In this document: positions 1,369 through 17,975 of the stretch, piece after piece
How the letters are laid out: every line of letters begins with the position of its first letter
How positions within the stretch are numbered: position 1 is the stretch's first letter
DNA from: Caulobacter sp. S45
Lineage (GTDB): Bacteria; Pseudomonadota; Alphaproteobacteria; Caulobacterales; Caulobacteraceae
Assembly (NCBI RefSeq): GCF_903642205.1
Contig: NZ_CAHJWH010000015.1
Span: 1-34,339, forward strand
Reading direction: 5' to 3'
Length of the DNA stretch: 34,339 bases
Translations under genes and position numbers: made by a program
The notes under the pieces: generated by a model
Databases searched by the model: none
Seen by the model: only the letters and a program-made list of their open reading frames with translations
Told to the model about the DNA's origin: nothing

Positions 1369-1449
1369 CTAGTCCGGGCGGCCGAACTCGAACATGTTCA
1401 CCGCGATGACGGCGACTACGAAGATCAGGATCGGCAGGAGGGCGCCCAT
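1369..1449 (-). CDS. 26-residue single-span membrane protein
   Basis: A very short frame between rlmN and the pterin reductase. It starts MGALLPILIFVVAVIAVN and ends MFEFGRPD: one hydrophobic span of about 15-17 residues followed by a short polar tail. An AAGGA ribosome binding site lies six bases before the ATG, and the stop is four bases before the GTG of the reductase. Strong binding site, clean membrane segment and tight coupling all argue that it is translated. I do not recognise a family with certainty. It may be an inner-membrane micropeptide; an alternative is a leader ORF that only delivers ribosomes to the reductase. Confidence 0.6.
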   Translation of the reverse strand: MGALLPILIFVVAVIAVNMFEFGRPD

Positions 1450-1510: not shown

Positions 1511-2674
1511 CTACTCCGCCAGCTCCGGCACCCGCCGCGCACTGGCCCGCAGCTTCTCGCTCTCCGACTTCAGCTGACCGCAGGCCGCCAGGATGTCCCG
1601 CCCCCGCGGCGTGCGGATCGGTGAGGCGTAGCCAGCGCAGTTCAGGATGGCGGCGAAGGCCTCGATGGTCGCGCCGTCGGAGCAATGGTATGGCGAGCCT
1701 GGCCAGGGGTTGAACGGGATCAGGTTGATCTTGGCGGGAATGCCGTCGATCAGCTTCACCAGCGCCCTCGCCTCCGCCGGGCTGTCGTTCACGCCCTTGA
1801 GCATGATGTATTCGAAGGTCGCCCGCCGCGCGTTAGACAGGCCCGGATAGGCCCGCACGCCCGCCATCAGCTGCTTTAGCGGGTACTTGCGGTTCAGCGG
1901 CACCAGCTGGTCGCGAAGCGCGTCGTGGGTGGCGTGGAGCGAGATGGCCAGCATGGCCTGGGTCCGGTCGCCGAGTGGCTTGAGTTCCGGCACGACGCCG
2001 GAGGTGGAGACGGTGATCCGCCGGCGCGAGATGGCGATGCCCTCGCCGTCGGAAATGATGTCGATGGCGCCCGCCACCCCGTCCAGGTTGTAGAGTGGCT
2101 CGCCCATGCCCATGAACACGATGTTGGACAGCCGCCGCTCTTCCTTCGGCGAGGGCCACTCCTCCAGGTCGTCGCGGGCCACCTGCACCTGGGCCACGAT
2201 CTCGGCGGCGGTGAGGTTGCGCACGAGCGCCTGGGTGCCGGTATGGCAGAAGGTGCAGTTCAGGGTGCAGCCGACCTGGCTGGAGACGCAGAGCGCGCCC
2301 GAGCGGCCGACATCGGGGATGTAGACGGTCTCGGCCTCGATCCCGGGCGCGAAGCGAATCAGCCACTTGCGGGTGCCGTCGCGGCTGACCTGCCGCTCGA
2401 CGATCTGGGGCCGCACCAAGGTGAAGCGCTCGCTTAACGTGGCCTGCATGTCCTTGGACACGTTGCTCATGGCGGCGAAGTCGGTGACGCCGTGATGATG
2501 GATCCAGCGCCACAGCTGGGCGGCGCGCATCTTCGCCTTGTCGGAGGCGACAGCGCCACTCTCCACCAGGGCGGCGGCGAGTTCGGGTCGGGTGAGGCCG
2601 GACAGGTTGCTCGGCGCGACCGTCGCCGCCGTTCGGCGGCCGAGGTCCAGGCTTGTGACGGGCGCAGCGTCCAT
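1511..2674 (-). CDS. rlmN: Dual-specificity 23S rRNA/tRNA adenine C2-methyltransferase
   Basis: Radical SAM enzyme that methylates C2 of A2503 in 23S rRNA and A37 of some tRNAs. The 387-residue protein carries the iron-sulfur cluster motif Cys136-x3-Cys140-x2-Cys143 within [10 protein letters not shown], the [11 protein letters not shown]-binding motif, and a conserved Cys at about 365 in AACGQL, the residue that is transiently methylated in RlmN. Length is normal for alphaproteobacteria. The ATG at 2674 gives the expected short variable N-terminus. The 26-residue ORF begins 61 bases downstream on the same strand. Identification is firm. Confidence 0.96.
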
Positions 2675-2741
2675 GGCGACAAGATAGGCCTTTAGGAACG
2701 AAGCGCCAATCGACCCCCGTCTCCTTCAGGAGCGAGGGAGA

Positions 2742-3203
2742 TCAAGGGCCCCGCGAGTAGGTGAGGCCATCGCAGGTGGACAGGCACTGGGTCCAGGCGG
2801 GGTCGCAGCCGCTGGTGTCGGCCTCGCCGCCGCTGGCGCACTGGGTGCGCGCCACCGCGCACTGGGCGCGGCACTGGCCGGTAGTGCTGCGGGCGAGAGT
2901 GGGCAGGCGGCTGTAGCGGGAGTGCACAGCCGAGCGCAGGACGAGCGGGGGAGGCGGTGCAACGATCGGCTTCACCGGCTTCAATGTCCTGGTCGACGGG
3001 ACCGGCGGGCGGATCGCGGCGTCCGGCGCGCCGAGGCTGTTCTGGTCCGACAGGCTGTTAGAGGCCGCCATGTCGGACGCCTCAGGCAGGGGCTTCGGCC
3101 TCGGCCGGGGCTTGTCCTGGGCGTTCGCCTGTCCCGCCGATGCCAGGACGCTGACGAGAAGTCCGGCGCACAGCAGGCGGGCGACGCTGCGCGCCTGGCC
3201 CAT
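2742..3203 (-). CDS. Secreted protein with a symmetric six-cysteine C-terminal motif
   Basis: No family recognised. The 153-residue product starts with a signal peptide (hydrophobic residues about 8-24, likely cleavage after ANA at 28). A Pro/Lys/Arg-rich disordered stretch fills about 30-100. The last 45 residues hold six cysteines at 111, 115, 122, 133, 140 and 144, spaced 3-6-10-6-3, which suggests an antiparallel helical hairpin closed by disulfides in the periplasm. It begins four bases after the grpE stop, so it is very likely the third gene of the hrcA-grpE transcript. Being made with grpE hints at an envelope protein-quality role, but that is inference. A CHCH-like convergent fold is another way to read the cysteines. 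Confidence 0.75.
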   Translation of the reverse strand: MGQARSVARLLCAGLLVSVLASAGQANAQDKPRPRPKPLPEASDMAASNSLSDQNSLGAPDAAIRPPVPSTRTLKPVKPIVAPPPPLVLRSAVHSRYSRLPTLARSTTGQCRAQCAVARTQCASGGEADTSGCDPAWTQCLSTCDGLTYSRGP

Positions 3204-3207
3204 TGGC

Positions 3208-3819
3208 CTAGGCCTTTGCGTCCAGTGAAGCGCCGGCGGCGGACGCTTCGGTCTGGGCGTAGGCGCCGTCGTTCACGGGCTGCAGGGGGGCCGCAGCCTT
3301 GGGCGTCACAGCCACCATGGCGGGGCGGATGATGCGGCCGAACAGCTCGTAGCCCGGCTGCATGACCCAGATCACGCTACCCGGCGGCACGTCGTCGGCC
3401 GGCTGCTCCATCATGGCCTGGTGGCGGTTGGGGTCGAACTTCTCGCCCTTATCGGGCATCACACGCTTCAGGTTGTTACGCTCGAAGGCGGTCTGCAGGG
3501 CCTTCTCGCTCATGGTCACGCCCATGACGAAGTTCTTCACCGCCGCGTCCTCGACGTCCCTCGGCGCATGCTCCACGGCGCGGTGCAGGTTGTCCGAGGC
3601 GTCCAGCAGGTCGCGGGCGAACTTCTGGATGGCGTAGGCGCGCGCGTCGTTGGCCTCCTTCTCAGTCCTCCGCCGCACGTTCTCCGCCTCTGCGGCGTAA
3701 CGCATGGCCTGGTCCTTCAGGGCGGCGTTCTCGGCCATCAGCTTGGCGAGCGTGCTGCCTGGGTCGATGGCGTCCTCGCCCAGCTCGGCTTCGGGGTCGT
3801 CGAAATCGTGTTCGGCCAT
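3208..3819 (-). CDS. grpE: Nucleotide exchange factor GrpE
   Basis: Co-chaperone that releases ADP from DnaK. The 203-residue product has an acidic N-terminus, a long coiled coil (about 25-80) reading through AEAENVRRRTEKE, and the C-terminal beta domain with GYELFGRIIRPAMVAV, all typical. The ATG at 3819 is preferred because GGAGA lies five bases upstream; an upstream in-frame ATG at 3831 has a poorer site. It follows hrcA by 38 bases and runs directly into the secreted cysteine protein. An hrcA-grpE operon is known from Caulobacter crescentus. I saw no CIRCE inverted repeat in front of the operon. Confidence 0.96.
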   Translation of the reverse strand: MAEHDFDDPEAELGEDAIDPGSTLAKLMAENAALKDQAMRYAAEAENVRRRTEKEANDARAYAIQKFARDLLDASDNLHRAVEHAPRDVEDAAVKNFVMGVTMSEKALQTAFERNNLKRVMPDKGEKFDPNRHQAMMEQPADDVPPGSVIWVMQPGYELFGRIIRPAMVAVTPKAAAPLQPVNDGAYAQTEASAAGASLDAKA

Positions 3820-3857
3820 TCGGCTCTCCATCTTCGTGTCTTTGTGCGGGTGGGCCG

Positions 3858-4952
3858 CTAGCCGTCCAGCAGGCGGCCGAGCACGCGGGCGGTGTAGTCC
3901 ACCAGCGGGATCACCCGGGCATAGTTCAGGCGCGCGGGCCCGATCACCCCGATCGCGCCCACCACCTTCTGCTTGCCGGTCATATAGGGCGCCGCGATCA
4001 CGGCGGAACCCGATAACGAGAACAGCTTGGTCTCGGCGCCGATGAAGATGCGCACGCCCTCGGCCTGGCGCACGTCGTCGAGCAGGCCGATCAACTGCTC
4101 CTTCTGCTCCAGGTCGTCGAAGAGCAGGCGCACCTTGTCGAGGTCCTCCCGCGCCGTGGCGTCCGCCAAGAGGTTGGCGCGGCCGCGCACGATGAGCGCC
4201 CGCTCCCCGCTCGGGCCCCCGCCCCAGGCGGCCATGCCGTCCTGCACCAGGCGGGTGGCGGCGTCGTCCAGCTCCTGGCGGGCGGCCTTCAGCTCGGCCG
4301 AGATGGCGGCTTCCGCCTCGGCCAGGGTGCGGCCATGCAGTCGGGTGCTGAGGAAGTTGGACGCCTCCTGCAGGGTGGAGGGGGTGAGGCCAGGGGGCGT
4401 CACCATCAGCCGGTTCTCGATGGAGCCGTCCTCGAATACCATGATGACGAGCGCGCGGGAGGGATCGAGCGGCACGAACTCCACGTGCTTGACGCCGGCG
4501 TCGCGCACCGGCGTCACCACCATGCCGGCGCCGCCGACGAGGCCCGAGAGCAGTATGCTGGCCTCGTCCAGGGCCTCCTGGAAGCTGCGGCCACGGCCGG
4601 CGAGGCGCCCCTCAATCAGCTTGCGCTCGTCCTCCCCGATGTCGCCGATCTCCATCAGGCCGTCGACGAACAGGCGCAGGCCCGCATGGGTGGGCAGGCG
4701 GCCGGCGCTGGTGTGCGGCGCCGCCAGCAGGCCCAGCGCGGTCAGGTCCTGCATGGTGTTGCGGATGGAGGCGGGGGAGAGCTGCAGCCCGCCCTTGGAC
4801 ACCGTGCGCGAGCCCACCGGCTCGCCCGTCTCCAGATAGGTCTCCACGATGCGGCGGAAGATGTCGCGGGCCCGCTCGTCCAGGGCGCCGAGGCTTGCGG
4901 CGCGCTCCAGGGCGAAGATGCTGGTGGAGGTGAGCGGCGGTGCGGGCGTCAC
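3858..4952 (-). CDS. hrcA: Heat-inducible transcription repressor HrcA
   Basis: Dimeric repressor that binds CIRCE elements, chiefly at groESL, and needs GroEL for activity. The 364-residue protein has the N-terminal winged helix (about 25-95, including [17 protein letters not shown] and [12 protein letters not shown]), a central GAF-like region and the conserved C-terminal [22 protein letters not shown]. The annotated start is a GTG at 4952. A TATAGCG sequence sits only a few bases before it, so the message could be leaderless or the true start slightly downstream. It is divergent from rph across 73 bases and leads grpE. Confidence 0.95.
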
Positions 4953-5025
4953 GGCGCTATAAGGTGGCCCGCGCCGCCGGCTTCGTCTAGGTGGGCGGCC
5001 GTTCTCACAAGGTGGAGCCTACCAC

Positions 5026-5739
5026 ATGCGCGCCCTCGACCGTGCTCCCGATGCGCTTCGCCCCATCACCCTGGAGACTGGCGTCAACCGCTATGCGGAA
5101 GGCTCCTGCCTGGTCGGCTTTGGACACACCCGGGTGCTGGTTACCGCCAGCCTCGAGGAGGGCGTGCCAGGCTTCCTGAAGGGCAAGGGCCAGGGTTGGG
5201 TGACGGCGGAATACGGCATGCTGCCCCGCGCCACCCACACTCGCGGCCGGCGGGAAGCTGCGGCTGGCAAGCAGAGCGGGCGCACCCAGGAGATCCAGCG
5301 CCTGATCGGGCGCTCGCTCCGCGCCGTGGTGGACCTGAAGGCGCTCGGCGAGCGGCAGTTCGCCCTCGACTGCGACGTGCTCCAGGCGGACGGTGGCACG
5401 CGCACCGCCGCGATCACCGGGGCCTGGGTCGCGCTGCGAAAGGCGTTCGACTACCTGCTGGCGGAGGGGGTGCTGAAGCGCGATCCGATGCTGGACCAGG
5501 TGGCGGCGATCTCCTGCGGGATCGTGGGGGGCGAGCCGCGGCTGGACCTGGACTACGAGGAGGATTCGGGCGCGGAGGCGGACGCCAACTTCGTGCTGAC
5601 GGGCTCGGGCCAGATCGTGGAGGTGCAGGCCACCGGCGAGAGGCGCGGCTTCTCACGCGCGGAGTTCGAGGCGTTGTTCGGGTTGGCGGAGGCCGGGATC
5701 ACGCGGCTGTGCGACTTGCAGAAGGAGGCCTGCGCCTAG
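5026..5739 (+). CDS. rph: Ribonuclease PH
   Basis: Phosphorolytic 3'-5' exoribonuclease that trims tRNA 3' ends. At 237 residues it is standard length, with the N-terminal [18 protein letters not shown], the [15 protein letters not shown] phosphate/RNA-binding region, and the C-terminal [16 protein letters not shown] segment typical of the family. The ATG at 5026 has GGAG eight bases upstream. It is divergent from hrcA, an arrangement seen across alphaproteobacteria, and its stop lies one base from the stop of the convergent thioesterase gene, so there is no room for a separate terminator. Confidence 0.97.
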
Positions 5740-17792: not shown

Positions 17793-17975
17793 GAAACCCT
17801 CCAACCTCACACGAGGTGATCAAGGTAAACATAAGCTTAAGCATTTCGCCAGCCTCATTTTCGCCCAGAACGCGATTTCGCTCTCCTGTGAGCTGAATGT
17901 GGCCGGAAAGCCACCGGGGCGGGAACGCGTGGTGCTTAAGCGAAGCGTTAGCACTCGCGAGGCTATCACCGGCCG

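Follow-up and report, generated by a model that had tools for sequence, protein, structure and literature searches.

The DNA stretch analysed here (34,339 nucleotides of Caulobacter sp. S45, called "the window" below) carries, on its minus strand directly after grpE, a gene for a small and probably exported protein whose last third holds six cysteines in a predicted helical hairpin. The protein is a member of an apparently undescribed family. In most of the relatives that share its architecture (type A, below) a putative CtrA box stands at a fixed distance before the start codon; in the window's genus the box is missing, and the gene follows hrcA and grpE, a gene order specific to that genus. 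The features concerned are these:

1369–1449, minus strand: microprotein MGALLPILIFVVAVIAVNMFEFGRPD, 26 residues and hydrophobic, between rlmN and an SDR gene; common to three genomes of the genus (positions 126–206 of L002 and 103–183 of L003)
1511–2674, minus strand: rlmN (PF04055 and PF21016), next downstream of the hairpin gene on the same strand, likewise in L009–L011
2742–3203, minus strand: gene for the six-cysteine hairpin protein, type A, 153 amino acids, ATG start; the single match in its own genome
2772–2873, minus strand: six-cysteine hairpin, residues 111–144, C-x3-C-x6-C-x10-C-x3-W-x2-C-x3-C (from the sequence, the 30-row alignment and the model)
2883–3119, minus strand: proline-rich linker, residues 29–107 (from the sequence; mostly low confidence in the AlphaFold2 model)
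3120–3203, minus strand: likely signal peptide, about residues 1–28, with a probable cut after ANA and before QD (from the sequence)
3208–3831, minus strand: grpE (PF01025, E 8.7e-48), 4 nt upstream of the hairpin gene
3858–4952, minus strand: hrcA (PF01628, E 5.3e-57), first gene of the presumed operon

The window protein and its six-cysteine hairpin

Both hrcA and grpE were identified by matches above the Pfam cut-offs. The window protein contains seven cysteines, one (C12) within the signal peptide and six (C111, C115, C122, C133, C140, and C144) in the mirror-symmetric arrangement C-x3-C-x6-C-x10-C-x6-C-x3-C of residues 111–144. The original prediction had given the gene coordinates, these six positions, and the 4-nt gap to grpE correctly, C12 being an extra, and had also proposed a signal peptide. 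The sequence makes the latter likely: its region forms a helix (3–28) in the AlphaFold2 model of the window protein, and A28 and Q29 in the cut region are kept in at least 90% of 30 aligned rows. Export via a Sec-type signal peptide is likely on these grounds.

The mirror spacing, also predicted, was confirmed in the window protein. It occurs once across the six frames of the whole window and is kept by relatives at another locus, and on this basis the pattern is beyond chance; no homologue without the spacing was met among the loci read. In the 30 aligned full-length rows, C111, R112, C115, C122, C133, C140, and C144 are invariant, and W137 is kept in at least 90%. All but one of 86 distinct hairpins (85) have a tryptophan four residues past the fourth cysteine, the exception, of type A, having phenylalanine; as the 86 were selected by the six-cysteine pattern, the constancy of their cysteines is partly built in, while the tryptophan was no criterion. 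The YF that precedes the third cysteine in 54 of the 69 type A hairpins is absent from the window protein.

Compared with the protein of genome G027, the window protein is 66% identical over 152 codons, the hairpin (88% identical; dN 0.053, dS 0.26, dN/dS about 0.2) being more constrained than the linker (59%; dN 0.36, dS 0.62, dN/dS about 0.6). Against the more distant G010 (hairpin 63% identical, dN 0.39, dS 0.55; linker dN 0.66, dS 1.18) this contrast vanishes, so the constraint at that distance lies on the cysteines and the tryptophan and not on the whole hairpin.

Structure prediction with AlphaFold2 and the 30-row alignment returned the two helices around the cysteines that had been proposed, as a helix-loop-helix, at residues 108–124 and 134–150 of the window protein (mean pLDDT 67.7, hairpin blocks 68–89) and at 60–79 and 82–97 of the relative encoded at locus L090 (mean pLDDT 74.1, hairpin blocks 88–95), with a low pTM in both (0.35 and 0.42, respectively). 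Superposed on hairpin chains (6wql, for example), they are predicted to run antiparallel. The three proposed cysteine pairs have a constant residue sum, 255 in the window protein and 161 in L090, a constancy that an antiparallel register demands, and judging from this register the cysteines probably form three nested disulfides, 111–144, 115–140, and 122–133. Foldseek found no match at E ≤ 0.001 for either model. The VIA-align rows reach Z 5.7 and are of a common helical kind, from which we claim no membership; they include, as weak matches, 6wql (Z 4.1, rmsd 2.5, 46 residues), a pumpkin seed peptide that we take to be a hairpinin, and the respirasome chain 8zo8_B7 (Z 3.5), presumably a CHCH subunit.

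Three known kinds of protein invite comparison. The CHCH proteins of mitochondria, with their twin CX9C motifs, are cystine-stapled helical hairpins, as is predicted for the window hairpin, the structural match being weak and of a common kind; a CHCH domain was rejected, since the window hairpin reads C-x3-C-x6-C, with CX10C and not CX9C from outer to inner cysteine. Sublancin has CX6C spacing, which that of the window hairpin resembles, and the sublancin family is matched weakly in both NCBIfam (TIGR04196, E 0.02) and Pfam (E 0.73); the NCBIfam score of 15.6 bits against a cut-off of 40 led us to reject membership. Glycocins (sublancin and glycocin F) are, in the parts of PMC12457901 that concern them, bacterial and built on two nested disulfides, to this extent like the window hairpin, but the third disulfide described there closes a C-terminal loop, whereas three symmetric pairs are predicted here. 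Furthermore, unlike glycocins, the hairpin protein has a Sec-type signal, and no biosynthetic genes were seen among 30 neighbours at nine of the relatives' loci; at the window gene itself the Pfam scan covered hrcA, grpE, and rlmN, none of which encodes a glycosyltransferase or C39 transporter.

Plant α-hairpinins share with the window hairpin the mirror-symmetric cysteines and the helix-loop-helix (predicted in the latter). As delimited in a passage of PMC11591084, they follow CX3C-X4-20-CX3C or, with six cysteines, CX3CX3C-X4-20-CX3CX3C. The window hairpin lies outside this spacing: it does have the outer CX3C pairs, but 24 residues separate them, and its inner spacing is 6, not 3. It differs from them also in being bacterial, in its proline-rich tether and conserved tryptophan, and in showing no sequence match.

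A family of the Caulobacteraceae with two types

Searching with a profile built from the first six hairpins, we obtained matches in 104 of 249 Caulobacteraceae genomes, spread over 15 of 22 genera. With a 25-row profile, 20 of 200 genomes in a sample of the order were matched, all of them Caulobacteraceae, and in a sample of the class 1 of 289, which was the window's own genome; within the samples searched, the family is found in the Caulobacteraceae only. Each genome of the window's genus has a single hairpin match at E 0.001. A scan of named genomes for C[AN]xxYYFC[LG][SA], confirmed by tblastn, gave 38 loci, all titled Phenylobacterium, Caulobacter, or Caulobacteraceae except for four metagenome assemblies whose titles say no more than Alphaproteobacteria or Caulobacterales, and all 38 encode the six cysteines. 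The loci read are mostly those of the best-scoring matches, a part of the 104 matching genomes, and since these are often close relatives, the counts for the family are not independent. Of the eight hits from the first whole-protein search, three (L005, L006, and L008) lack the six-cysteine motif and were set aside as matches of linker composition.

None of 30 members of the family had a Pfam match at E 0.01; what the window protein itself matches in Pfam and NCBIfam falls below the cut-offs, and PHROGs gave no match (NCBIfam and PHROGs were run on three proteins only); a search of a plasmid collection with the hairpin protein found no match, and a sequence search of the PDB found nothing better than E 1.7. 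Our literature searches located no earlier description of the family, though a published list of CtrA targets may hold a Caulobacter orthologue under its locus tag.

With further genomes added, the 86 distinct hairpins comprise 69 of type A and 17 of type B. In type A, a signal peptide and a linker precede a C-terminal hairpin of the form C-x3-C-x6-C-x5..10-C-x3-W-x2-C-x3-C; in type B the hairpin directly follows the signal peptide and has a tail behind it. The hairpins of type A have a mean charge of −0.14, close to neutral, and those of type B, at +3.4, are basic on average. We assigned the 17 type B rows manually, guided by the tree, in which they make up a single clade (support 100/99, on 32 columns only). 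The window protein is of type A by architecture and by its place in the tree, with a likely signal peptide, the linker, and the C-terminal motif of that type; its group includes 11 further divergent rows, and the CtrA box is kept in six of them (fork support 86/76), in a tree whose deep support is weak on its 32 columns. Three genera (L039, L134, and L137) have a type A and a type B gene in tandem, head to tail with A first, and of these loci L134 alone has a box before the A gene.

Putative CtrA boxes of the relatives and the grpE order of one genus

A putative CtrA box, TTAA-N7-TTAA with at most one mismatch, lies 37–42 nt before the start codon of 59 of the 69 type A hairpins (40 exact, 19 with one mismatch). 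The ten without it are the three of the window's genus together with L078, L080, L082, L086, L137, L039, and L115, the last of which keeps the hairpin but has no credible start or box and is counted as a miss. L078, L080, and L082 form one clade that keeps the YYF hairpin and has no CtrA box upstream. Among the 17 type B genes, none has a box with at most one mismatch at 37–42 nt; one carries such a box farther off, at 45 nt, and sites with two mismatches occur in two.

In the 38 named-genome loci, the exact box is found just upstream in 34, and under a looser pattern a box-like site is present in 37, its first base 37–40 nt before the ATG. The 286,602 bases of these loci contain 36 exact boxes, 34 of them at the hairpin promoter, against 0.05 on average in 100 runs of first-order Markov copies, none of which held more than 1. 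Considering all 6,854 ATGs on both strands of the same loci, 35 have an exact box at 37–42 nt, a number that rises to 38 when one mismatch is allowed. When the promoters are aligned on the box, which fixes the TTAA columns by the search itself and leaves the flanks free, a preceding GG is constant (34/34) and is itself preceded preferentially by CAT (23, 24, and 30 of 34); spacer and remaining flanks vary, and the information declines further upstream.

For C. crescentus, PMC4287350 places the 5′ base of full CtrA motifs near −35 (−39 for ctrA P2) and has expression following CtrA in the predivisional cell. A box 37–42 nt before the ATG in this geometry would put the transcription start at, or a few bases from, the start codon, so the relatives' transcript is predicted from the box position to be near-leaderless and CtrA-activated. 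Most type A relatives have a full site at the activating position as in the Caulobacter CtrA regulon (PMC4287350), from which they would differ in a transcript start coinciding with the start codon; the window gene differs in lacking the site. The only match in the window with at most one mismatch is at 17826, and none of the three loci of its genus (L009–L011) has a box at that threshold.

A survey of 30 proteins from nine loci by Pfam, together with a motif scan of the 38 loci, showed SDR, TetR regulator, Abhydrolase_3, zinc alcohol dehydrogenase, and FMO genes around the CtrA-type gene in varying combinations. These neighbours are mostly metabolic and name no function. By motif, 19 of the 38 loci (all within L088–L118) have a chemoreceptor (MCP) gene about 0.9–2.1 kb upstream of the hairpin and on its strand, and Pfam confirmed it in the three of them that were scanned (L088, L090, and L110); it is found in none of the seven loci titled Caulobacter, one of which (L108) spans only 271 nt upstream. 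Of five genomes checked at E 1e-60 for the SDR gene that flanks the relatives' hairpin, only G011 has it; the three of the window's genus and G015 gave no match.

In all three genomes of the genus examined, the hairpin gene stands between grpE, which it follows at 4, 3, and 20 nt respectively, and rlmN, and it would be cotranscribed with grpE. At 27 other Caulobacteraceae grpE loci (the best 30 of 59 matches less the three of the window's genus), no hairpin motif occurs within 1.5 kb past grpE. Other genes follow there, apart from three loci with no open reading frame passing the filter within 700 nt. The genes after grpE vary among L012–L038, a dnaN-like frame recurring in L023, L024, L028, and L030, and with such variation the 3′ end of the operon looks like a rearrangement point. 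Roberts and colleagues are said to have described, in 1996, heat induction of the Caulobacter hrcA-grpE operon. A passage of PMC8119881 has HrcA and CIRCE acting on groESL. The window contains no CIRCE element, its positions 2500–5200 contain no terminator-like site (1.2 on average in shuffles), and a sigma-32 consensus had no match in L009 or L010; seven of 30 loci, including L011, match it only weakly.

The proposal that hairpin and chaperone belong together is supported as to gene order in the genus, where the gene adjoins grpE in every genome examined, and not as a general link: the chaperone connection is lineage-specific, and the CtrA-type promoter of the relatives is the stronger general feature. 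As to conservation, the six cysteines are kept in the relatives read and the hrcA-grpE location is not kept outside the genus. A transcript separate from that of grpE is predicted for most relatives, and not for the window's genus.

What the hairpin protein may do

We think it probable that the protein is a small exported, stapled hairpin, timed by CtrA in most type A relatives and re-sited in the window's genus, which serves as a protein-binding module of the envelope. It would consist of a proline-rich tether ending in an α-hairpin, probably stapled by three nested disulfides. With their own CtrA box, the type A relatives would make it when active CtrA peaks, in the predivisional cell, and a role in the envelope around polar or motility development seems most likely. 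In the window's genus, with the gene apparently third in the hrcA-grpE operon and no CtrA box, expression should be constitutive or stress-linked. The gene orders are most simply explained if, in this genus, a CtrA-driven gene moved to its place behind grpE and lost its box; alternatively, the order of this genus may have come from the loss of one of two copies. Of the earlier interpretation this retains a likely exported, predicted helical hairpin with its six cysteines in nested register, and gives up the general link to grpE.

Other readings fit parts of the evidence. The tight order in all three genomes of the genus and the want of a terminator-like site between 2500 and 5200 would suit a heat-shock periplasmic factor, made with GrpE and guarding the envelope under stress, but the lack of the motif after grpE at the 27 other loci read, the CtrA-type promoter of most type A relatives, the lack of CIRCE in the window, and the unmatched sigma-32 consensus in L009 and L010 speak against it; the position after grpE may also be incidental, because rlmN follows on the same strand. 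We regard such a factor as rather improbable. Less probable still is a secreted peptide of the α-hairpinin or glycocin kind, directed against neighbouring cells. It could draw on the nested cystine pairs of plant α-hairpinins and glycocins, so far as the passages of PMC11591084 and PMC12457901 go, on the weak sublancin-family matches, and on the basic type B hairpins; yet neither a glycosyltransferase, a C39 transporter, nor an evident immunity gene turned up among the 30 neighbours at nine of the relatives' loci, the mean charge of type A hairpins is close to zero, and a CtrA-type promoter would better suit a developmental part.

The same promoter favours a periplasmic protein, produced by the predivisional cell, that partners a chemoreceptor or belongs with the flagellar or pilus programme, as does the MCP gene upstream in half of the named-genome loci and in the three Pfam-scanned ones. 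Its absence from the loci titled Caulobacter, including the short one, weighs against this, and the MCP linkage may be one inherited gene order; we hold this partner to be unlikely. A similarly doubtful idea is that types A and B make up a two-part, cell-cycle-timed exported system, perhaps a disulfide-stapled heterodimer at a cell pole, whose A gene has passed, in the window's genus, from control by the cell cycle into the chaperone operon.

On our preferred reading, that of a CtrA-timed envelope module re-sited in one genus, the family offers a natural case of one gene that most relatives keep under a cell-cycle promoter and a single genus has in a chaperone operon. It also provides a bacterial example of a mirror-symmetric six-cysteine helical hairpin, as predicted here, of the sort seen in plant defence peptides. 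As the Caulobacteraceae include the best-studied bacterial model of the cell cycle, the hairpin family is a ready target there.
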